Source: an uncultured Clostridia bacterium (lineage in GTDB: Bacteria; Bacillota; Clostridia; Oscillospirales; Ruminococcaceae). Taken from it: DNA of 14,051 bases. Shown one piece after another: positions 133-9,566 of this stretch (positions are counted from its first letter, which is position 1; each line of letters starts with the position of its first letter). The notes under the pieces were generated by a model, which was given only the letters and a program-made list of their open reading frames with translations, searched no databases and was not told the DNA's origin. The translations under genes were made by a program, and so were the position numbers. Where the stretch lies: assembly GCA_946056455.1 (NCBI GenBank), contig CAMGJS010000009.1:1-14051 (forward strand), written 5' to 3'.

Positions 133-423
133 CTAGAATACCAGCGGTCCTTCGACCTGTATAGTATTTTTTGCACCTATATGCTCAATCCTGCTTTTAT
201 ACTTGTCACCAAGAAAATAGAATCTGAGGCTGTCTTTATCCTTATCTATTATTTCAGACAGTTCCTGTTTGACTTCACGGAATTTTGCAGGGTCAATTAC
301 ACATTCAAAAACGGAATTCTGAACACGGACTCCGTAATTGACGCACTTTTTTGCGACTCTGTTCAGCCGTCTGCGTCCTTCTTTTGTTTCGGTATTGACA
401 TCGTATGTAATCAGCACCATCAT
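133..423 (-). CDS. cas2: CRISPR-associated endonuclease Cas2, type I-C
   Basis: Cas2 is the small dimeric partner of Cas1 in the spacer-integration complex. The protein starts MMVLITYDVNTET, a ferredoxin-like first strand carrying the conserved Asp of the family (ITYDV). It then has an RRLNRVAKKCVNYG helix, VQNSVFEC in the second strand, and a DSLRFYFLG strand. The start is placed at the ATG at 423, giving 96 aa, the usual size. GGAAG at the very end of cas1 lies 7 bases upstream. The longer open frame reaching back to 459 would run into cas1 and lacks family resemblance. The ATG at 420 is a one-residue alternative. It is the last gene of the cas operon, 4 bases after cas1. Confidence 0.96.
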   Translation of the reverse strand: MMVLITYDVNTETKEGRRRLNRVAKKCVNYGVRVQNSVFECVIDPAKFREVKQELSEIIDKDKDSLRFYFLGDKYKSRIEHIGAKNTIQVEGPLVF

Positions 424-427
424 AATA

Positions 428-1459
428 TCACTTCCACATAAAAACGGGATAACCGTCAAGTTCTCCCCTTATATATCTTGCAAGCAAAAGCGCCTGAACA
501 TAGGGGAGCAAGCCTCTTTCGACCTTTTCATTCAAAAAAGGATGTCTGATTTCTTCATATTTATAATTTTGCCACATAGAAAGAAAATTCCTTCTTGCAT
601 TTTCTGTGAGAAATACCGCTCCGTCCTCACGCTTTTCAAAATCTGAAGGCGATACACACTTTTTATTGATAAGCGTCAATACAAATCTGTCGCAGATGAC
701 GGCTCTGAATTCCTCAACCATATCGAGAGCAAGAGAGCGTCTTCCCGGGCGTTCAGTATGCATAAACCCTACATAAGGGTCAAGCCCTACGGATTCCAGC
801 GCGTCTGTGCACATACCTGTCATAAGCGAATATGCAAACGACAACAGAGCGTTGACATTATCAAGCGGAGGGCGTTTATTTCTTGAATTGAAATAAAAAT
901 CTTCCTTCTGTTGAAGTATCATATCGTCAAAAACAGAAAAATAAACAGACGCCGCTTCTCCTTCAATTCCTCTTAATTCGTCAATACTATCCGCATTTAA
1001 AGCACTTTTTGCAGCAGAACGCAGAAAATCCGATTTTCGCTTGAATTTTTCAGTATCTATCCTCATTCCGTGATCTCTTAGAGTACGCTCGATGGAATAA
1101 CGGCTGTTGGATATTTTTCCTGCAATAATATTTGAGGCTATTTTAAGACTCTCTGATTTATCGTCCGCAAGTCTGAACTGCTGACGGCGGAGAATAACAT
1201 TTCCGCAGACATTTCCTTCAACACGGCAAAGAAAATGACCTGTTCTGCCCATAAATGACAAAGAAATCCCGTTCTCAACGCACTTTCCCATAAGAGCGGG
1301 ACTTGCACCGAGAGCCCCGAACGCAATTATGCCGTTAAGATTATGAAGCGGAACTCTCCCGATCTCCTTGGATTTTTCGCTTATCACCACATTTTCTCCG
1401 TCAAGAGAAAGATATCTGTCGGGAATTGCGATATAAAGAGTATTCAATAGCTTTTTCAT
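428..1459 (-). CDS. cas1: CRISPR-associated endonuclease/integrase Cas1, type I-C
   Basis: Cas1 is the metal-dependent integrase that inserts new spacers at the leader end of the array, in complex with Cas2. The N-terminal beta domain (KKLLNTLYIAIPDRYLSLDG) is typical of I-C Cas1. The catalytic helical domain shows the metal ligands: Glu166 in RGIEGEAA, His234 in GFMHTERPG, and Asp246/Glu249 in ALDMVEEFR. The start is the ATG at 1459, which gives 343 aa. GGAGG ends 10 bases upstream of it. A TTG at 1468 that overlaps the cas4 stop is only one base from that GGAGG, too close to be used. The gene is translationally coupled to cas4. No frameshift or missing catalytic residue is seen. Confidence 0.97.
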   Translation of the reverse strand: MKKLLNTLYIAIPDRYLSLDGENVVISEKSKEIGRVPLHNLNGIIAFGALGASPALMGKCVENGISLSFMGRTGHFLCRVEGNVCGNVILRRQQFRLADDKSESLKIASNIIAGKISNSRYSIERTLRDHGMRIDTEKFKRKSDFLRSAAKSALNADSIDELRGIEGEAASVYFSVFDDMILQQKEDFYFNSRNKRPPLDNVNALLSFAYSLMTGMCTDALESVGLDPYVGFMHTERPGRRSLALDMVEEFRAVICDRFVLTLINKKCVSPSDFEKREDGAVFLTENARRNFLSMWQNYKYEEIRHPFLNEKVERGLLPYVQALLLARYIRGELDGYPVFMWK

Positions 1460-1464
1460 TTTGT

Positions 1465-2118
1465 TCAAGCCTCCAGCATATCCGACAAATATTCGGAAAC
1501 CGTTTTAACGGAAGGAAGAGACGGCAGACAAATATCCTTCAAAGAACAGGCATTGCAATTTTTTGAGCGTTTTACAACGGGGGTTTTTCCAATGTGAAAC
1601 TGCTTATGCATTTCTTCTATTGTCGCTTTTGTTTTCTGCCGTATCTCTTCATTGAATTCCACTTTTGTTCTTCTGCGTGTTTCGCCGTAAAACAGATACC
1701 CGAACGGTATATCGCAGCAAAGCATAAATTCAAGACACATTGCCTGAGCTACAAGCTGCATAATGTCCGAATCGTTCTCTTTGGGCTCGCCGCGCTTGTA
1801 TTCAATGGGCGTAACGGTATATTTTCCGTCCCTGCCAAAAATTTCTGTACCATCCTGCGAACGCCTGAATTCAACGACATCACATTCGCCGCTGACGCCA
1901 AGCTCTGCTGACGAAACCGCCATTCCCCTTACGATAACAAGGTCGTTCCTCTTTTCGTTAAAATCTTTGTCGTGGACATTTCTGTGCATTATCCTGCCGT
2001 CAGCGGTACGGTAATTTTCGCACCATTGCTGTTCAATATGTATCAGAGCCCATTGCCGACGGCAGAATACAAAATGCTGAATTCCCGAAATAAGCAGATA
2101 TTCATCCTCGTTATACAT
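1465..2118 (-). CDS. cas4: CRISPR-associated exonuclease Cas4, type I-C
   Basis: Cas4 is a RecB-like nuclease with an iron-sulfur cluster that trims prespacers and selects those with the right PAM before Cas1-Cas2 integration. Visible features in the 217-aa protein are a first cluster cysteine, Cys19 (FVFCRRQWAL), and three C-terminal cysteines, Cys188, Cys191 and Cys197 (CNACSLKDIC). The nuclease core has Asp80 (GECDVVEF), Glu106-Lys108 (PIEYKRG) and a Gln-rich helix near 121-125. The ATG lies one base after the cas7 stop. No strong ribosome binding site is seen, so coupling to cas7 translation is likely. All expected catalytic and cluster residues are present. Confidence 0.96.
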   Translation of the reverse strand: MYNEDEYLLISGIQHFVFCRRQWALIHIEQQWCENYRTADGRIMHRNVHDKDFNEKRNDLVIVRGMAVSSAELGVSGECDVVEFRRSQDGTEIFGRDGKYTVTPIEYKRGEPKENDSDIMQLVAQAMCLEFMLCCDIPFGYLFYGETRRRTKVEFNEEIRQKTKATIEEMHKQFHIGKTPVVKRSKNCNACSLKDICLPSLPSVKTVSEYLSDMLEA

Positions 2119-2119
2119 A

Positions 2120-2980
2120 TTACATCAGGTCGTATATCTCGGGAGTGACTCCATCAAGCTTGTCAAGTGTGATGGTATAGCTGTTAAAATCAACAGGCTT
2201 CTTTACTCCGTCTTTAAGTTCGATATGAAGTGAACGGCGCACCTTTGCCGAGGAATTTTTCGGCGTCTTGCAATCGTGCTTCCACCAGTAAAGACGACAT
2301 ACTTCCATACTTCCTTCGGGGCGTGCAGAAGATGAATCGTTATCAAACAAGGTCATAAGAGCCTGCTTTATCTTTTCGGCGTCCTCGTCCGTAAATCCTG
2401 TTTTTTCAGCAAGCTGACAGTTTATGCTTCCGTGAACGACATACATAGCAAAGTCAACGCGATGCTTCATTCCCATTGTATCGGAAGCTTTGCCCTCTTT
2501 TCCGCTTTCGCTGTTGACGCTTTTTGTTATCTGCATACTTACTATATCAACGGGAGAAACGCTCACCGCCTGACATACTGAAACGGGACCTCTTACTCCT
2601 ACCGATACGGGATCGTTCTTGAACGCAAACACCTGTCCGAAGCTTCTTACATCTATCCATTCGGCGCAAGCGGTTTTTTCAAACAATTCACGGTCTGTAT
2701 TTTTACCGTTCTTTATTGCTTTGAGTGCGGCGTTGTTTTCCGCTCTTGTTCTCAGGCTGTCGCACCCATCATCGCATCTGTCGTCCGACTGGACAAATAT
2801 CTTCTCGCCCATATCCTGCAAGCGATTTCTTATTTTTCTTTTAATACATACATCGGATATTTCGCCGAAGCCGTCAAAGCTTATTCTTGGGCGGTTTCCA
2901 TCAAGAGGGTCGCCGTTGGGGTTTGCTCCTGTTGCTGTAATTATAAGCGAAAAATCAATTTTGTTCTGTAATGTACTCAT
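2120..2980 (-). CDS. cas7: Cas7 backbone subunit of type I-C Cascade (Csd2)
   Basis: Cas7 (Csd2, 286 aa) polymerises along the crRNA to form the Cascade backbone. The N-terminus has the family hallmark ANPNGDPLDGNRPR (residues 19-32), followed by a basic CIKRKIRNRLQD helix that fits RNA binding. The central part has VGVRGPVSVCQAVSVSPVDI and the SDTMGMKHRVDFAMYVVHG strand seen in Csd2 proteins. The length is normal. The start ATG has an excellent GGAGG 8 bases upstream, overlapping the end of cas8c, so this stoichiometrically abundant subunit has the strongest ribosome binding site in the operon. It sits two bases after cas8c/cas11c and one base before cas4. Confidence 0.96.
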   Translation of the reverse strand: MSTLQNKIDFSLIITATGANPNGDPLDGNRPRISFDGFGEISDVCIKRKIRNRLQDMGEKIFVQSDDRCDDGCDSLRTRAENNAALKAIKNGKNTDRELFEKTACAEWIDVRSFGQVFAFKNDPVSVGVRGPVSVCQAVSVSPVDIVSMQITKSVNSESGKEGKASDTMGMKHRVDFAMYVVHGSINCQLAEKTGFTDEDAEKIKQALMTLFDNDSSSARPEGSMEVCRLYWWKHDCKTPKNSSAKVRRSLHIELKDGVKKPVDFNSYTITLDKLDGVTPEIYDLM

Positions 2981-2982
2981 TT

Positions 2983-3363
2983 TTATTCCTCCTCGTTTTC
3001 GTTTGTTGTTGATTTGTAAATTTCTGCAGTAAAGTGTGAATAACCTAAAAGATATGCAGGTTCAAGCGGCGAATCATCATTAAATGTTTCAAGCGACATC
3101 TTCCCCATTATATCCTGTTTGAGTCTGTCATAATACACCTTTTTTGCTCCCGCCAGTTTGTTCATATAAGGCAAAAGGCGCTCTTCAATCACCTTCCATG
3201 TCCTGCAAGGGTGATTTGAAAATGAATTCCAGTAGCGTTTTGCATTAGTTAATCTTTTTCCCTTATCCTCTTTTTCATAAGCGGAATTTTCTGCCGCGTC
3301 CGCTATTGCAAGCAGACAGCCGTAAAGATAGCTTCTGTCGGTTTCATTTGGGTCATAGCTCAT
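2983..3363 (-). CDS. cas11c: Cas11c small subunit, internal start within cas8c
   Basis: Type I-C Cascade contains a small helical subunit, Cas11, made from an internal start in the 3' end of cas8c. Here an in-frame ATG at 3363 begins MSYDPNETDRSYLYGCLLAI, a sequence typical of the small-subunit N-terminus. GGAGG at 3374-3378 lies 10 bases upstream, although it is inside the cas8c reading frame. The product would be 126 aa, close to the roughly 120 aa known for Cas11c, mostly helical, ending at the shared cas8c stop. The gene is nested in and in frame with cas8c. The ribosome binding site and homology-like start are seen; separate translation is inferred from the family. Confidence 0.8.
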   Translation of the reverse strand: MSYDPNETDRSYLYGCLLAIADAAENSAYEKEDKGKRLTNAKRYWNSFSNHPCRTWKVIEERLLPYMNKLAGAKKVYYDRLKQDIMGKMSLETFNDDSPLEPAYLLGYSHFTAEIYKSTTNENEEE

Positions 3364-4824
3364 AGTTGTTATACCTCCGTTTTCTGAATTGTATTTTCTT
3401 ATCATACCGCACGCCGTTTCAAGGACAATGCGGTGATTATACGATTTTTCATATGCAAGCGGATTCGACGCTTTTCTGCAAAGCGCCCTGACAATATCAA
3501 CAGGAAAGCTTCTTCCTTCTGTCACGCAGGGAATAAGCCTTACGACAGTTTCTCTGAGCAGTTCTTTTTTACACTCTATTCTGTCGCCCTGCTCTGTTCC
3601 GAAAGCACAGCCTGCAATTTCATAAATACTGAAATCGTTAAAGACAGAACGGTTGTTCTTTCCGTCAAAGCGTCTCCATGCGGTATTTTCATGCCAGCTT
3701 TTTATGTTATTGAAAAAATCCGAGCTTTCCATCTCTGAATACATCGAAACCGAAAGTCTTCCCGTTGTTGCAGCGTCAACGCCCATTATCATCACTTTGC
3801 TGTTATGGGTATATTCTTTCTGATACCCGAAAATCATCTTTTCAACAAGTTCAGCGTGTTTTGATTCCGTATCCGCAACAAATTCATCGTCGGGGAACTC
3901 GTCCATATAGCAGGCTGATAAATCAGACATTATTTTCGGCACAGGCTGCATTGCGCTTGCCCAGACCGCAACGGAAAGAGAATCGATTGAAAAGCCCTGC
4001 TTTGTAATCAGCCATTTAAGCGCATTGTGCATTTTCTGAGAAAATTCATAGCTTATCGCAAAAGCTTCTTCTTTATTGCTGAATTTTCCTCTGTATGTAA
4101 ATCCGCTTTCATCATTTGCCGAGATAAGCTTTGCTTTATCGCCTGAATTTCTTATCTTTGACGGATGCTTATATGTTGTCGGAAGAATTTTTCCCGTTGC
4201 ATAGCAAAGTTGTTCGTTACCCATTATGCTTGTATTGAATTGCAAAAAGCTGTCATATAGACTTTTGTCCTTCCAGGTTCTGTTTTCGTGTTCAAGGTCA
4301 GAATAATTTACACGAAATCTGACAAAAGAGTCTGCTTGCGCAATTCCCGCTATTTTGTAATCTTCCGTTAGCTTGCCTGTTGATTCATCGCATTTTAACA
4401 CGCCGCAGGATACAAGGTCTTTGATAATACAGTCCTTTTCAACATAATTATAAACCGCTTTTACCGCAGGGTGAGTAAATTTGCTGTCCTTCCATTGTTC
4501 AAGCTGAGAAATATATGCCTTGAAATATTCGGAATTATCCGAGCGCTTTCCTACTGCATAATCTTTGTAGTCGCCTGCTATATATATCAACTTGTCGGCA
4601 AAAGGCATAGGAGAAATTCCGCTTGACCTTGAACCTGAATTTTCTGTTACGGGAATAACGGTGACAGCGTCTGATTTATCTATAGCTTTTGCCGAATCAA
4701 ATGCGCCGTTTTCATCTATCGTGATTTCAATCTGAGCGTTAGCGGTCGAATGTGATACAGGCAATAATTCACCGCCGTTACAATTATTTTCATACACCCT
4801 GTAAAGTTCATCAGCCCAGCTCAT
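2983..4824 (-). CDS. cas8c: Cas8c large subunit of type I-C Cascade (Csd1)
   Basis: Cas8c (Csd1) is the Cascade large subunit that recognises the PAM and helps recruit Cas3. The protein begins MSWADELYRVYENN, as is typical for Csd1. It then has a beta-rich N-terminal part with FADKLIYIAGDYKDY, and a central region with FTYRGKFSNKEEAFAISYEFSQKMHNALKWL (given here in outline: residues roughly 240-275). The C-terminal helical region doubles as Cas11c. The start is the ATG at 4824 (613 aa). GGAGG lies 8 bases upstream inside the end of cas5c, and the genes overlap by 14 bases. An upstream ATG at 4851 would add nine residues not seen in the family and lacks a site. Confidence 0.95.
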   Translation of the reverse strand: MSWADELYRVYENNCNGGELLPVSHSTANAQIEITIDENGAFDSAKAIDKSDAVTVIPVTENSGSRSSGISPMPFADKLIYIAGDYKDYAVGKRSDNSEYFKAYISQLEQWKDSKFTHPAVKAVYNYVEKDCIIKDLVSCGVLKCDESTGKLTEDYKIAGIAQADSFVRFRVNYSDLEHENRTWKDKSLYDSFLQFNTSIMGNEQLCYATGKILPTTYKHPSKIRNSGDKAKLISANDESGFTYRGKFSNKEEAFAISYEFSQKMHNALKWLITKQGFSIDSLSVAVWASAMQPVPKIMSDLSACYMDEFPDDEFVADTESKHAELVEKMIFGYQKEYTHNSKVMIMGVDAATTGRLSVSMYSEMESSDFFNNIKSWHENTAWRRFDGKNNRSVFNDFSIYEIAGCAFGTEQGDRIECKKELLRETVVRLIPCVTEGRSFPVDIVRALCRKASNPLAYEKSYNHRIVLETACGMIRKYNSENGGITTMSYDPNETDRSYLYGCLLAIADAAENSAYEKEDKGKRLTNAKRYWNSFSNHPCRTWKVIEERLLPYMNKLAGAKKVYYDRLKQDIMGKMSLETFNDDSPLEPAYLLGYSHFTAEIYKSTTNENEEE

Positions 4825-5560
4825 CAAAATCACCTCCGCCGAATTCTTCAAGTCCCGAAAAATTATTATATTCCTTGCCGAAAGGCTTTATCGGCATATC
4901 CTTTATATGTCGTTTTATGGTGCAATCCTTTGGCGCAGTAAAATCAATAACTCCGTTTTTCATAACGGGCTCAAAGAATGTTATCGTCATCTTGCCCTTG
5001 TCGTCGGGTTCTGTTGCCTCATCGGCATAAATTGTTCCGCAATACATCAGATTGTAGGGTATCTCTCCGCTATTGTCATAGTACCCTTCACCCTCACCGA
5101 AAACGCAAGGCTCAACAAGGCATTGACATTCTCTTGTTCCGAGATAACAATCCCGTCTGCCTCCGCGTTCTATCATTCTTTTTGCGATGGAGCTGTGCTT
5201 GTTCAGATTTCTGTCTCCTGCAAGCTCGGGGCGGTTATAGTTCCAGTCAAAATGCGCCCTGACCTGATAATGAACATCGGCAAGATAAGTGTAATACGCA
5301 AGGTCGTTTCCTCCGCTGTAGGATATAGGGCGCATACCCTTGCGGACTGTTCTTATCCTGTTCATTATCCTTACGCTGTCGATGGTCCAGATAAGAGTTG
5401 GTTTAAAATAAACGCTTTGTAAAATTCCTTTGAGAGCCTCGTATGTTGGAATCATATAACTGCATTTTTCTCCGCCCGCTCTTGTTAAAACATCGGAAAA
5501 AAGCGCATAGTCGCCCTTGACTGAAAACTCGACATAGTTTTTTTCAGGTTGTCCACTCAT
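4811..5560 (-). CDS. cas5c: Cas5c crRNA-processing endoribonuclease, type I-C
   Basis: Cas5c (Cas5d) replaces Cas6 in type I-C. It cuts pre-crRNA at the base of the repeat hairpin and stays bound to the 5' handle in Cascade. From the preferred ATG at 5560 the protein is 249 aa. Candidate catalytic residues are Tyr40 (PTYEALKGI) and Lys121-His122 (NLNKHSSIAKR), matching the Tyr/Lys/His set known for the family. The fold begins with NYVEFSVKGDYALFSD. The ATG at 5560 has AAAGGA about 9 bases upstream; an ATG at 5569 is too close to it. It is the first gene of the cas5-8-7-4-1-2 operon. If the RNA gene at 5689 is real, this enzyme would also process it. Confidence 0.95.
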   Translation of the reverse strand: MSGQPEKNYVEFSVKGDYALFSDVLTRAGGEKCSYMIPTYEALKGILQSVYFKPTLIWTIDSVRIMNRIRTVRKGMRPISYSGGNDLAYYTYLADVHYQVRAHFDWNYNRPELAGDRNLNKHSSIAKRMIERGGRRDCYLGTRECQCLVEPCVFGEGEGYYDNSGEIPYNLMYCGTIYADEATEPDDKGKMTITFFEPVMKNGVIDFTAPKDCTIKRHIKDMPIKPFGKEYNNFSGLEEFGGGDFDELG

Positions 5561-5585
5561 TTTTTTCATTCCTTTCTGTTTTAGT

Positions 5586-5605
5586 TTCTAGTGTGATTTT
5601 ATAAT
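5586..5605 (+). promoter_or_regulatory. Candidate self-target: TTC PAM plus 17-nt protospacer over the cas -10 box
   Basis: On the plus strand TTC (5586-5588), the canonical type I-C PAM, is followed by TAGTGTGATTTTATAAT (5589-5605). The same 17 bases occur at 5719-5735, directly after the solitary repeat. The PAM is on the correct 5' side of the protospacer for type I. The site covers the -10 and start site of the cas operon promoter. A full 34-base footprint would also reach the -35. The identity and PAM are seen; Cascade binding here is inferred. Confidence 0.8.
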
Positions 5606-5624
5606 AGTCTTTTGCAAATGTCAA
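5589..5624 (-). promoter_or_regulatory. Promoter of the cas5c-cas2 operon
   Basis: On the minus strand a perfect -35 TTGACA (5619-5624) is followed after exactly 17 bases by -10 TAAAAT (5596-5601), with TATAAA two bases upstream as an alternative. The start site should fall near 5589. The 5' leader to the cas5c ATG would be about 30 bases. The promoter is strong by consensus, which makes repression a reasonable need. Its -10 and start site are exactly the part copied into the guide position of the RNA gene at 5689. Confidence 0.8.
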
Positions 5625-5638
5625 GCGATTTTTAAAAT

Positions 5639-5656
5639 GTTCACAAAAAGTTCACA
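5639..5656. repeat. Tandem GTTCACA motif between divergent promoters
   Basis: GTTCACA occurs at 5639-5645 and again at 5650-5656, an 11-base period that puts both copies on one face of the helix. The pair lies between the cas operon -35 (5619-5624) and the -10 of the opposite RNA promoter (5677-5682). It may be a binding site for a regulator of one or both promoters. The second TTCACA is 20 bases from that -10, too far for an ordinary -35. Confidence 0.45.
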
Positions 5657-5664
5657 TTCGCAAA

Positions 5665-5682
5665 TATATCAAATGATATACT
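5665..5682 (+). promoter_or_regulatory. Extended -10 promoter of the crRNA-like gene, inside a 16-bp palindrome
   Basis: The plus strand has TGaTATACT (5674-5682), a full extended -10 element, which makes a good -35 unnecessary. The start site would fall at about 5688-5690, exactly the first base of the solitary repeat. The -10 overlaps a perfect inverted repeat TATATCA (5665-5671) / TGATATA (5674-5680), which could be an operator. The -10 motif is clear; the operator role is speculative. Confidence 0.6.
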
Positions 5683-5688
5683 ATAAAT

Positions 5689-5718
5689 GTCGTCTGCTTA
5701 GCAGGCGTGGATTGAAAT
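5689..5718 (+). CRISPR. Solitary type I-C CRISPR repeat (psi-repeat)
   Basis: The 30-base unit begins GTCGTCTGC, has a TTA loop, then GCAGGCG, and ends TGGATTGAAAT. CGTCTGC/GCAGGCG form a 7-bp stem with one G-U wobble. The last 11 bases match the 5' handle that Cas5c leaves on I-C crRNAs (ends GTGGATTGAAAC or -AAAT in the family). Common I-C repeats are about 32-33 bases with a longer loop, so this one seems slightly shortened. Only one copy occurs, so it is not an ordinary array. Confidence 0.88.
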
Positions 5719-5735
5719 TAGTGTGATTTTATAAT
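5719..5735 (+). repeat. 17-base direct repeat of the cas promoter in guide position
   Basis: TAGTGTGATTTTATAAT here repeats 5589-5605 exactly, 130 bases apart in the same orientation. It starts at the first base after the CRISPR repeat, the seed end of a type I guide. Identity does not extend on either side. On the minus strand this copy resembles a -10 box, but no -35 lies 17 bases away, so it is not a second cas promoter. Confidence 0.85.
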
Positions 5736-5746
5736 TGCACAATCCT

Positions 5747-5782
5747 GCCGCATGGATTTATTCTATGCGGCGCTTTTTTTTT
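5747..5782 (+). terminator. Intrinsic terminator of the crRNA-like RNA
   Basis: A perfect 7-bp stem GCCGCAT (5747-5753) / ATGCGGC (5765-5771) with an 11-base loop is followed after two bases by nine T residues (5774-5782). The T run is only on the plus-strand side, so the terminator serves plus-strand transcription. No plus-strand protein gene lies upstream, which supports the RNA gene. The T run reaches the last two bases of the cas3 stop codon. Confidence 0.88.
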
Positions 5783-8132
5783 AAAAAATAATAGCTTCCG
5801 GCGGTGTTCCTTTAAGAGTTACTCCAAGCTCGTTGTCATAAAATCTTTCAGATAGAACGATTGCGCCGTTTTCAAGCTGATAAACCGCCCCTTCATTTAA
5901 AAGCTTTTTCAACATTCCGTCATAAACATTAACTGTATACGATTGGAGCTTTCTCATTGCTTCTTCAAAATCCGACAAAGAAATATTTGAGCCGATTTTC
6001 TTTATCATTCTTTTTGCCTCGTCATCATAAGGGACAATCACACCGACGGTATTATTATCAATAACATTAAATATACTTCCTGCCGTCTTAAATGCCTGAG
6101 AGGTATATGTACGCTCTTTGATTTGTCTGATGTTCCATCGGTTTATGTCAAGCGACAGCAAATTCATCAGATTATCTTTTCCGTCGGGAGTATTGTAATC
6201 AAGCTCTTTTCCTGCTTCTCGATACAGTTTTTTGAAATACATTTCCATAGGTTCGGGCATAAGCAGGTCGTCATATTTTTTGCTGTTTATCAGAAGCCTT
6301 GAATTGCTTTGTGACATTTCGATTTCTTTCAGCCTGCCAAGCCGTTCATCTCTTACATATAGTATATATACGGGACAAATTTCATCTCTTTCTCCATTTC
6401 TGTTGCATCTTCCTGCCGCCTGGGCCGCATTGTCAAGCCCAGCCAGCGAACGCACAACGCACCCGAAGGAAATATCCACGCCTGCTTCTATAAGCTGAGT
6501 TGTGACACATATCACTCTTTTGCCTTCGGCGATAAGACTTTTTGCCTTTTCGATAATGCTCTTTCTGTGCTTCGGGCACATATTTGTGCTGATATGAAGC
6601 ATAGTCGCTTTGTCTTTATTACCGGCATTGTCGTTTATCTTTTTCATAATACCGAATATTTCGGATGCCGAGGATTTGGTGTTTAAAACAACAAGAAGAC
6701 TTTTATGTTCAAGATATTTTTTATAGCAGAACTCTGCCGCTTCGTCAAAGCTATACCCCTCTTTTGTAACTTCAGGCACAAGCCTTGTCCTTTTGAATAT
6801 TTCAAAATCCTTGAGGTAATCTCCTGTAATATCCCTTTCTTTATCATATATTACGGGGAATTCAGTATCGTCAAAGACAGGCTGGGTTGCCGAGCAAAGC
6901 ACAACCGTACTGCCGCAGATATGGGTGAGGAAATTAATCGCCATATTGAAAAGGTTGACGCATTTTGTCGGAACAGACTGTACTTCATCAATGATTATGA
7001 CAGACCTGCAAAGCCTGTGCATTCTCCTTACCGCTGAGCTTTTTCCGTCAAACAAAGCGTTTAAGAACTGAACAAGAGTCGTTGCAATTACGGGTATATC
7101 CCACTTTTCTGTGCGGAGCTGATATTCTTCGTATTCTTCTTCAGAATCCATTTCATTGAGGATATTTGAATGATGTTCGAGAAAATTGCCTTCACCGCAT
7201 AATTCTTTGATAACCGCGCTGTTCTGTTCGAGTATCGACATAAACGGAGCTATGTAAAAAATTCTGTCCATATCAAAGCGTTTGCAGTATTCAACAGCAT
7301 ATCTTAAGGATGAAAGCGTTTTTCCGCCTCCTGTGGGGACGATAAGACGGCATACTCCTGCCTTATGGCCTGCAAATCTTGCGCAACGGTCAGAAATGCT
7401 TTGTCTTTGCAATGATATTTTATCAACATTCCCCGAAAAACCTTTTAACTTTTCTTCAAGACTTTTTTGAATATCTTCCCAGAGTTTTTTTGTATCATAT
7501 TCCTTCTCTGTGTGACAATCAAACATAAAGTCGGCGGTGTCTGTACGGTCGGCGTCGATAAGTACAGATTCCATCAGTCGTTCAAACATTCCAAGATAAA
7601 ATGCAAGGTCCTTTTTTGTTCTGCTGATTTTTTTCAGCTTTTCTCTTGCCTTTGAATACTCTTCTTCACAAAGCGGAAAAAGCGTTTTAATCTCCTCTCC
7701 GAATTCTTTATCAAATTCGGAATAAGCCTCGTCATATCCTTCGTTTTTTGATATTCTCTCGGCAAGATAATCTTTTCCGTCTTCTTTCAGCCAGTCATGC
7801 AGACCATGATGTGATATTACGATATGCGCTAATAGTGAAGCGGTCTCATAGGCGGCAGGCTCGTTTATCTTCCTTGCATATTCGCATATTATTCTTGCGC
7901 CCGTATAGCTGTGGTCTATATCTCCCCTTTTTTTATTGCCGATACCGTGAATATAATCATTGAATCCGTTTGTCATTTTTCCTGCGTCATGGATAAGTCC
8001 CCCAAGCCTTGCAAGATTATTAAGACCTGTCTTTTCGGCATAGCCCTCTGCTAATCGTGCAGTTTCACAAAGATGTGAAATAACCGATTGCTCCGCTTTG
8101 TCTGCGTCTCTTATATGCGCAGTATATCCCAT
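5781..8132 (-). CDS. cas3: Cas3 helicase-nuclease, type I-C
   Basis: Cas3 is recruited to target-bound Cascade, where it unwinds and degrades DNA. From the preferred ATG at 8132 the protein is 783 aa. The N-terminal HD nuclease shows His20, His48-Asp49 (LIHDAGK), His74 and His108/109 (ISHHG). The SF2 helicase has PTGGGKT (266-272), IDEVQSVP with a DEVQ box (382-385), SATQP (414-418) and the C-terminal motif QAAGRCNRNG. AAGGGGTG lies 6 bases before this ATG. An ATG at 8165 would add 11 residues, has no ribosome site and coincides with the predicted transcription start. The gene precedes cas5c by 220 bases. No terminator on its own strand is seen, so read-through into the cas5 operon is possible and would be antisense to the RNA gene. 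Confidence 0.96.
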   Translation of the reverse strand: MGYTAHIRDADKAEQSVISHLCETARLAEGYAEKTGLNNLARLGGLIHDAGKMTNGFNDYIHGIGNKKRGDIDHSYTGARIICEYARKINEPAAYETASLLAHIVISHHGLHDWLKEDGKDYLAERISKNEGYDEAYSEFDKEFGEEIKTLFPLCEEEYSKAREKLKKISRTKKDLAFYLGMFERLMESVLIDADRTDTADFMFDCHTEKEYDTKKLWEDIQKSLEEKLKGFSGNVDKISLQRQSISDRCARFAGHKAGVCRLIVPTGGGKTLSSLRYAVEYCKRFDMDRIFYIAPFMSILEQNSAVIKELCGEGNFLEHHSNILNEMDSEEEYEEYQLRTEKWDIPVIATTLVQFLNALFDGKSSAVRRMHRLCRSVIIIDEVQSVPTKCVNLFNMAINFLTHICGSTVVLCSATQPVFDDTEFPVIYDKERDITGDYLKDFEIFKRTRLVPEVTKEGYSFDEAAEFCYKKYLEHKSLLVVLNTKSSASEIFGIMKKINDNAGNKDKATMLHISTNMCPKHRKSIIEKAKSLIAEGKRVICVTTQLIEAGVDISFGCVVRSLAGLDNAAQAAGRCNRNGERDEICPVYILYVRDERLGRLKEIEMSQSNSRLLINSKKYDDLLMPEPMEMYFKKLYREAGKELDYNTPDGKDNLMNLLSLDINRWNIRQIKERTYTSQAFKTAGSIFNVIDNNTVGVIVPYDDEAKRMIKKIGSNISLSDFEEAMRKLQSYTVNVYDGMLKKLLNEGAVYQLENGAIVLSERFYDNELGVTLKGTPPEAIIF

Positions 8133-8171
8133 TAAATTCACCCCTTTTGACAAAATATTGTTCATGTAATA

Positions 8172-8398: not shown

Positions 8399-8659
8399 TC
8401 AGTCCTCCTTTTCCCAGGGCCATTTGCCGTCGGTCCAGTCCCAGCTTTTTTCCGCCCTGGACTGTCTGTAATTCAAAGGGCCGTACTCTTCAACATATTT
8501 CTTTACCGCTTCGTTATAAAGGTCGCGGTATTTTCTGAAATAGGCAAGCCCCTCGGTGCAGGTCTTGTGCGTGTCAAGATAAAGTGCTATTTCATCAATG
8601 ACAAAGCTGTACATCATAATCGTCTTTAAAAGGCATTCCTGCTTAGCGTCTGTTTTCAT
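8399..8659 (-). CDS. cotJB: Spore coat protein CotJB
   Basis: This 86-aa protein has the CotJB pattern: a helical first half with FVIDEIALYLDTH, then YFRKYRDLYNEAVKKYVEEYGPLN, and a Trp-rich tail SWDWTDGKWPWEKED. CotJB belongs to the mother-cell cotJ operon and is needed with CotJA and CotJC for that coat sublayer. The ATG at 8659 lies inside the end of cotJA (17-base overlap), with GAGG 9 bases upstream. cotJC follows three bases later but is truncated, so the CotJ assembly is probably incomplete unless another cotJC copy exists. Confidence 0.93.
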   Translation of the reverse strand: MKTDAKQECLLKTIMMYSFVIDEIALYLDTHKTCTEGLAYFRKYRDLYNEAVKKYVEEYGPLNYRQSRAEKSWDWTDGKWPWEKED

Positions 8660-8840
8660 CTGGTACCGCCTCCTCGCCTATAAATGGAAAATCAAGAGAT
8701 TGAAAAATCGTTCCCCTTGAAAAAGCTATGTTTTCGGCATAGGGTTTTTCCCAGTACTGAAAGGGAACATATGCCATTGCAAGCGACAGCTTATCGGGCA
8801 ATGCGCTTTCGGGCATTCTTAATGCGTTTGTATTATTCAT
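8643..8840 (-). CDS. cotJA: Spore coat associated protein CotJA
   Basis: This 65-aa protein has the CotJA core LSLAMAYVPFQYW (residues 19-31) followed by FSRGTIFQSLDFPFIGE. CotJA is the first product of the cotJABC operon, made in the mother cell and built into the spore coat. The ATG at 8840 is preceded by AGAGGA with a 9-base gap. The gene overlaps cotJB by 17 bases, so their translation is probably coupled. Confidence 0.93.
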   Translation of the reverse strand: MNNTNALRMPESALPDKLSLAMAYVPFQYWEKPYAENIAFSRGTIFQSLDFPFIGEEAVPDENRR

Positions 8841-8964: not shown

Positions 8965-9501
8965 TTATTTTTGCGGATACTCTTTAAGCTCCCTTATATA
9001 TGCAAAGGTCTCTTTTTCTCCCTTTTCCGAAAGCATAACAAGCAGGCTTTCGATAAGGTCCGATGTATCCTTGTCGACATTTCTTCTTGCCTTGCCGCGC
9101 ATAAAATATTCAAGTGCCGCGCCATCGTGATATTTGTCCTTCATATATATTTTACTTGCCGCAACCCTGTCGCAGAACATTTCCTTTACATACTTCACGG
9201 GCATTTTAACGGGAAAAATCTGCTTTGTCTTGTAGTTATAGTCGGTCCAGTATTCAAAGTGGTGCTTGTTTCTGCCCTTGTGGTGCATCCAGGCGGCAGA
9301 ATAGCCTATGGTTTCACGCTCCGCCTCGTGAGGAGAACGGTTGCCCTGAAAATATTTTACACCGTTTAAGAATTCCTCAAAGCTGTATTTTGAAAGGTCG
9401 TGCAAAAGTCCCTGAAAGGGTATTCCCGCCTTGAAGCAATGCTTCATAACAGCGTTGCGGTGCTTTGTTACAGTTATAAAATGCTTTAATGCCTTGCCCA
9501 C
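8965..9501 (-). CDS. DUF5662 family protein
   Basis: The function is unknown. The 178-aa protein matches the DUF5662 pattern common in Firmicutes: HRNAVMKHCFKAGI, then QGLLHDLSKYSFEEF (from residue 30), and YSAAWMHHKGRNKHHFEYW (from residue 67). The HDLSK motif at 34-38 and the paired histidines at 73-74 and 80-81 suggest metal binding and recall HD-domain hydrolases, but that is inference. The start is a GTG at 9501, with AAAGGAG 8 bases upstream. An ATG at 9549 lies upstream of the predicted transcription start and lacks a site. It has its own promoter and terminator. No link to CRISPR is seen. Confidence 0.85.
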   Translation of the reverse strand: MGKALKHFITVTKHRNAVMKHCFKAGIPFQGLLHDLSKYSFEEFLNGVKYFQGNRSPHEAERETIGYSAAWMHHKGRNKHHFEYWTDYNYKTKQIFPVKMPVKYVKEMFCDRVAASKIYMKDKYHDGAALEYFMRGKARRNVDKDTSDLIESLLVMLSEKGEKETFAYIRELKEYPQK

Positions 9502-9511
9502 ATAAAACGCT

Positions 9512-9566
9512 CCTTTGTGCCGACTTACTATGCCAATAATATAGCACAAAGGGGCATTTTTGTCAA
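9512..9566 (-). promoter_or_regulatory. Promoter of the DUF5662 gene with a 9-bp dyad
   Basis: The minus strand has TTGACA (9561-9566), a 17-base spacer, and TATATT (9538-9543), close to the sigma-A consensus. A perfect 9-bp inverted repeat flanks the start region: GCACAAAGG at 9544-9552, filling the spacer next to the -10, and CCTTTGTGC at 9512-9520, overlapping the ribosome binding site. One arm lies upstream of the start site (about 9531), so the dyad cannot be a hairpin of the main mRNA and looks like a repressor operator. Confidence 0.65.

Follow-up and report, generated by a model that had tools for sequence, protein, structure and literature searches.

A lone CRISPR repeat with a guide matching its own cas promoter: a probable CreR-like control element of type I-C loci

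A lone repeat between cas3 and cas5

The window, by which we mean the whole stretch of 14,051 nucleotides analyzed, carries type I-C cas genes on its minus strand, with cas3 (8165-5781) followed by a 211-base gap and then by cas5c-cas8c-cas7c-cas4-cas1c-cas2 (5569-133). All seven Cas proteins of the window (7/7) matched curated models of type I-C or general Cas families, and the system was assigned to subtype I-C by its Cas8c/Csd1, Cas7/Csd2, Cas5c, and Cas1c matches. No open reading frame of at least 60 amino acids was found within 5570-5780, and Rfam at gathering thresholds returned no match anywhere in the window. Near the cas locus, CotJA and CotJB spore coat genes occupy 8399-8840, so that the host is perhaps a spore former, and 8965-9549 encodes a DUF5662 protein. 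The features on which the analysis rests are as follows.

133-459, minus strand: cas2 (TIGR01573, 72 bits)
428-1468, minus strand: cas1c (TIGR03640, 465 bits)
1465-2118, minus strand: cas4 (TIGR00372, 116 bits)
2120-2980, minus strand: cas7c (Csd2; TIGR02589, 325 bits)
2983-4851, minus strand: cas8c (Csd1; TIGR01863, 326 bits)
4811-5569, minus strand: cas5c (Cas5d; TIGR01876, 222 bits), first gene of the predicted target operon
5586-5588, plus strand: TTC, the PAM of the target, read from the sequence
5589-5605, plus strand: protospacer-like target of the guide, assigned by sequence identity with the guide
5596-5624, minus strand: predicted promoter of cas5-8-7-4-1-2 (TTGACA at 5624-5619, 17 nt, TAAAAT at 5601-5596)
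5674-5682, plus strand: predicted extended -10 of the guide RNA, TGATATACT, from the sequence, with transcription expected to begin near 5689, where the repeat starts
5689-5718, plus strand: lone, degenerate type I-C CRISPR repeat, GTCGTCTGCTTAGCAGGCGTGGATTGAAAT, from the sequence, with a hairpin at about 5691-5707 and then the handle TGGATTGAAAT at 5708-5718
5719-5745, plus strand: spacer-like guide part, of which the leading 17 nt (5719-5735) match the predicted cas promoter exactly
5746-5782, plus strand: predicted intrinsic terminator, with an 11-pair stem at 5746-5772 (also present in the fold) and a run of nine T at 5774-5782
5781-8165, minus strand: cas3 (TIGR01587 and TIGR01596), upstream of the lone-repeat element

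The element at 5689-5782, between cas3 and cas5, holds one repeat at this place rather than the two or more of an ordinary array, and the T-run of its predicted terminator is overlapped by the cas3 stop codon. Within the window's own genome, which is 74% complete, no CRISPR array was found, and three further occurrences of GTGGATTGAAA resembled coding DNA as judged by eye, untranslated. The repeat hairpin folded at -9.3 kcal/mol, a value equaled by 8 of 200 shuffles. Because the extended -10 stops six bases short of the repeat, transcription would start at the repeat itself. In the fold of the free RNA, an 8-pair hairpin lies over the guide (5719-5740) and covers the seed; it may delay loading or have no meaning.

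The first-pass annotation had described a 17-mer placed right after the repeat and copied beside TTC over the cas -10, with identity stopping sharply after 17 bases, and each part of this description held in the window. TAGTGTGATTTTATAAT at 5719-5735 begins at the first base after the lone repeat and is identical to 5589-5605; these are the only two copies of the 17-mer in the window (both on the plus strand), even when 3 mismatches are allowed, whereas dinucleotide shuffles gave a mean of 0.08 matches and two copies in 0 of 200. In 5000 draws of a Markov control on the AT-rich region, a 17-base match appeared once and one of at least 15 bases three times, and the window match on its own is unlikely to have arisen by chance, though this is possible. 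TTC is present at 5586-5588. Identity between guide and target ends at base 18: 21 of 35 bases match, 17 of them being the first 17, with only 4 further matches from base 18 on. A consensus scan of 5400-5900 found a single sigma-70-like site on the cas strand, TTGACA-17-TAAAAT, with 11 of 12 consensus positions; its placement at 5624-5596 puts the predicted -10 (5596-5601) inside the target. The target spans this -10, reaches the expected start, and lies 19-36 nt upstream of cas5. When the own genome was searched, the PAM plus the 15 paired positions (defined below) matched without mismatch at the cas promoter only; with 3 mismatches allowed, two unrelated places and the guide's own locus were added, the latter bearing AAT where the PAM TTC would stand.

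Self-matching guides across type I-C loci

Relatives were gathered through Cas5c from three sets of genomes. Of 394 in the order, 88 gave any match and 41 strong places were kept; of 391 in the class, 61 matched and every place was kept; of 398 in the phylum, 110 matched, with 103 over the cut-off. After removal of duplicates, the Cas5 set comprised 195 loci, 192 of them with at least 300 bases upstream and a few genomes contributing two; order-search hits under about 55 bits unless present in the class search, hits below the cut-off in the phylum search, G1005 (truncated), and repeat entries of one genome were left out. A first handle search placed L040, L041, and L042 beside cas5. A pattern scan of contigs, which asked for a repeat closely preceded by a -10 and then an A/T run, yielded 32 further loci, of which 11 adjoin a cas5 hit and 9 of these (seven distinct guides) have a good site; the other 21 had no cas5 hit in the examined stretch. 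A search for repeats of at least 12 bases in the 700 bases upstream of cas5 returned the window pair and otherwise short or unrelated ones, missing the relatives because their guides mismatch at positions 6 and 12. No relative emerged from a Cas5 scan of viral contigs.

Targets were called by a rule that treated all 17 positions equally and required TTC or TTT and at least 12 matches, applied to the 30 repeat ends found in 203 cas5 upstream regions. This gave 23 guides with a site and seven without one of at least 12 matches (L041 second strand, L092, L102, L177, L178, L185, and L196). Two of the 23 rows were noisy and were dropped from the carriers: L041 from the first handle search, whose best site (TTT) mismatches at positions 2, 4, and 5, and the second handle of L073 (12/17, TTT). 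Also not counted were the two other scan loci beside a cas5 hit, L092 (best 11/17, TTT) and L102, which has no TTC or TTT site with 12/17 and reaches 13/15 adjoining GTC, and L136, which has a variant handle and 13/15.

In total, 21 loci including the window have a lone repeat and a guide fitting their own cas upstream region, namely 15 of the 195 Cas5c loci and 6 more from the pattern scan. They include Massilioclostridium coli (L042/L097), Aquibacillus salsiterrae (L079), Gastranaerophilales (L073/L091, L099), Oscillospiraceae (L085, L088, L101), and other genomes of the window's phylum; the element is absent in the close relatives L003-L005. The Cas8c model was matched in 10 of the 10 carriers tested, and Cas8c of L115, L117, and L121 stayed under the curated score, their proteins being cut off by the end of the stretch. 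Arrays of normal repeat occur in all six carrier genomes examined (6/6), and these array repeats have the GTGGATTGAAA end in common with the lone repeat and a different stem. On a quickly built Cas5 tree with 200 rows, the distribution of the 21 carriers required 13 state changes versus 20.3 when shuffled, at least 7 of the 13 on well-supported branches; the carrier trait is clustered yet scattered on this tree. In 14 of 23 candidates (9 of the 15 Cas5-anchored carriers), the 48 nt preceding the handle contained TGNTANNNT, compared with 378 of 6400 stretches of that length drawn at random; the candidates include scan loci chosen partly for their -10.

The space before cas5 also differed. Among non-carriers, the gap to the previous same-strand frame had a median of 14 bases (n=175; five more not measurable), whereas carriers had at least 173 bases in 14 of 14 measured (L117 not measurable), and a gap of at least 120 bases was seen in 14/14 carriers versus 7/175 others (Fisher 2e-16). 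Protein matches identify the preceding frame as cas3 in the window, in L101, L115, L116, and L073, and beside the scan loci. One of the seven wide-gap non-carriers, L136, perhaps holds a diverged form of the element: its handle is the variant GTGGATTGTAAC, and its guide fits a site beside TTC at 13/15.

The PAM was TTC in 20 of 21 carriers and TTT in one (L042), under a search that accepted TTC and TTT only. The target letters stand on the strand opposite cas in 19 of 21 carriers and on the same strand in 2. The best-scoring -10 was overlapped by at least 3 bases in 8 of 22 target sites and the expected start was contained in 8 of 22 (noisy rows included in both counts), so that the -10 overlap claimed at first stands for the window and fails as a rule. 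At several loci the target sits up to about 20 bases past the expected start, a placement from which Cascade would obstruct elongation at an early stage.

Some lone repeats fell outside this set. At L102 (about 6597-6650) and L250 (Brucepastera parasyntrophica), a lone repeat lies upstream of a Cas5-like gene (67 bits, below the cut-off), with a guide that fits a site toward that gene at 13/15, beside GTC instead of TTC; this unit may be the self-guide of a different type I subtype. In L075 (Gammaproteobacteria), L076 (Spirochaetaceae), and L089 (Lachnospiraceae), a lone repeat directly follows a -10-like box, with no type I-C cas protein hit and no good target in the examined stretch. A search for Cas5c found none in the L075 and L076 genomes, and in the L089 genome it lies on a different stretch.

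Co-variation of guide and target and competing explanations

The letters of guide and target differ between loci and agree within each locus. Across the 23 guides, mismatches at positions 1 to 17 numbered 0, 2, 1, 1, 1, 15, 0, 2, 1, 1, 0, 15, 0, 1, 1, 3, and 6. Positions 6 and 12 mismatch at 65% over these sites and are therefore nearly free, and positions 18-30 mismatch at 74%, as expected of random bases. Positions 6 and 12 hold 30 of the 50 mismatches (binomial P 5.5e-16) or, in the 21 guides without the two noisy rows, 30 of 42 (P 3e-19), both values ignoring relatedness. With 6 and 12 free and pairing ending at 17 in the 21 loci, pairing covers three five-base segments (1-5, 7-11, and 13-17). 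Since the window guide is paired at 6 and 12 as well, its relatives are the source of the phase signal. The mismatch pattern and the end at 17 correspond to the footprint of a type I Cascade R-loop.

Guides fit their own loci far better than those of others: at least 14 of 17 matches were reached by 20 of 23 own guides versus 7 of 4646 swapped trials. Over the paired positions, 13 own guides reached at least 13 of 15, a level seen in 0 of 1059 swaps, with 12 seen in 2. Among the 21 carriers, 19 have at least 14 matches and 15 at least 15; L117 has only 12/17. Reversed guides (n=25) gave one match of 15/17 in its own locus, one of 13, and one of 12, and one of 1000 shuffled guides reached 14. 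In L085, the nearest Cas5 relative of the window (78% identical), 8 of the 15 paired positions have changed on both sides and none is broken; compensated changes relative to the window number 4 in L101 and 10 in L088, and the farther pair L046-L049 shows 3 compensated changes and 2 broken positions. Co-variation in related genomes was one of the checks proposed by the first-pass annotation for its prediction that Cascade represses its own synthesis: guide and promoter match within loci, independent divergence was not seen, and mismatches sit at positions that type I Cascade does not read, with pairing ending at 17. Comparative evidence from 20 further type I-C loci supports the predicted autorepression.

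Four other explanations were weighed against these data. The unit could be what is left of an array, now functionless, with a spacer originally acquired from the cas promoter; the single repeat, the partial match, and the lack of a detected array in the own genome (74% complete) agree with such decay, but acquisition would leave a full-length match decaying at random places, whereas the 21 loci end at about 17 with mismatches at 6 and 12. Promoter-like and terminator-like signals flanking the window unit and the compensated changes in sister loci also speak against decay, which we consider improbable, although it ranks highest of the four. Still less credit is due to a shared operator, in which the 17 bases would be the site of a protein regulator in both promoters. 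One intergenic region does hold both copies, but the second lies inside the predicted guide and starts exactly at the repeat end, and a protein site would conserve letters that here vary between loci, agree within them, and are nearly free at 6 and 12.

On a par with the operator in its low probability is an antisense RNA that would pair with the cas mRNA leader and block translation or destabilize the message without Cascade. The cas mRNA is read from the minus strand, to which this RNA is complementary, and the target lies downstream of the best -10 in L046, L049, and L042; against this, antisense pairing would need neither the flanking TTC nor freedom at positions 6 and 12, and the L079 target is on the other strand. 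In the window, the target takes in the -10 and stops at the expected start, which would leave the cas mRNA with almost none of it. Chance similarity in AT-rich DNA, which yielded a 17-base match once in 5000 draws, 14/17 in 7 of 4646 swapped guides, and 15 in one of 25 reversed guides, is barely credible given that the guide begins where the repeat ends, that its target has a PAM, and that such pairs recur in 20 other loci whose mismatches keep one phase.

Predicted autorepression and known systems

Very probably, to judge from the sequence comparisons, 5689-5782 encodes a CreR-like crRNA that parks Cascade without cutting on the cas5-8-7-4-1-2 promoter and thereby represses Cascade synthesis, and the lone repeat with its self-guide is likely a recurrent, RNA-guided control element of type I-C loci. 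The RNA would start at the repeat from the extended -10, end at the terminator, and load Cascade; Cas5c, which processes crRNA in type I-C, would cut it to an 11-nt handle. Segments 1-5, 7-11, and 13-17 would form fifteen base pairs beside TTC and hold Cascade on the promoter, in an R-loop too small to call in Cas3. Free Cascade would thus be sensed, more of it leading to less new Cascade, and ordinary or foreign crRNAs or anti-CRISPRs that remove Cascade would bring cas expression up again. With AAT in the PAM place, the gene of the guide would itself escape. In the available passages of PMC10551041, guides of 11 to 26 nt repress in a type I-B system, and lengths of 26 nt or below no longer support cutting; the presence of an intact-looking Cas3 in the window without self-destruction agrees with this.

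A broader proposal, for which we see the case as evenly balanced, is that type I-C loci have repeatedly been split by a self-guide between cas3 and cas5, separating Cascade and the adaptation genes from cas3 and placing them alone under Cascade control, with selection keeping the match at three Cas7 segments. If true, the three-segment match would be a natural reading of the R-loop that type I-C Cascade can open without calling in Cas3. The predicted autorepression itself would add type I-C, which serves in genome editing, to the subtypes whose CRISPR effectors repress themselves through an RNA guide, and would mark a natural boundary between binding and cutting at 17 nt in three segments; unusually wide cas3-cas5 gaps are suggested as a place to look for such regulators.

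CreR, a cas-regulating RNA, was reportedly described by Liu et al. in Cell Host Microbe in 2023 (10.1016/j.chom.2023.08.005). As summarized in the consulted passages of three reviews (PMC13131331, PMC12737573, and PMC12948488), CreR is a crRNA-like RNA of a mini-CRISPR, partly complementary to a cas promoter, that autorepresses Cas proteins. These passages name subtypes I-B, I-E, and V-A (PMC13131331, in which two I-C passages concern anti-CRISPRs) and call CreR widespread in type I (PMC12737573). A description of a type I-C CreR was not found in the portions of the literature searched, and Liu et al. (2023) may contain a reported or predicted case. By every sequence feature tested, the window element qualifies as a CreR, with I-B, I-E, and V-A taken as examples rather than a defining limit. 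The likeness includes a repeat-like unit with a guide beside cas genes and outside an array, limited complementarity to a cas promoter adjoining a PAM, co-evolving guide and promoter, and presumed autorepression of Cas proteins; the difference is its subtype, I-C, outside those three. Its single repeat with a terminator, its three paired segments, and its place in a gap separating cas3 from the Cascade operon may be further differences.

According to the accessible parts of PMC8501985, positions 1-5 and 7-11 of H. hubeiense CreA pair beside TTC while 6 and 12 may be mutated, H. hispanica creA has one repeat and a T-rich terminator, and one-repeat forms of haloarchaeal creA gave much less RNA than two-repeat forms. 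As far as these parts describe it, CreA (of CreTA) resembles our element in its degenerate repeat, TTC PAM, 1-5/7-11 pairing, and free positions 6 and 12, and, in H. hispanica, in its one repeat and T-rich terminator. The type I register with 6 and 12 free, reported for CreA, was found over both the 23 and the 21 sites, while the window itself matches at both positions. On the same partial account, CreA differs in that it represses a toxin RNA and pairs to 11 (two segments), whereas the window target is the cas5 promoter and pairing runs to 17 (three segments). The window target is not a neighboring toxin promoter, as CreTA would have it, and about 20 nt from the expected start to the cas5 start codon leave little room for a toxin RNA.

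In type II-A systems, tracr-L directs Cas9 to silence its own promoter with a natural, partially matching guide. Silencing of an effector's own promoter through such a guide is the feature shared with the predicted window element, and the difference lies in form, Cas9 with a tracrRNA versus Cascade with a repeat-derived guide. Racr, described in the available passages of PMC10651486 as a phage RNA anti-CRISPR of viral genomes that inhibits CRISPR-Cas, is likewise a solitary repeat unit; the window unit differs from Racr so described in that it sits in a cas locus and its guide is matched to the cas promoter.
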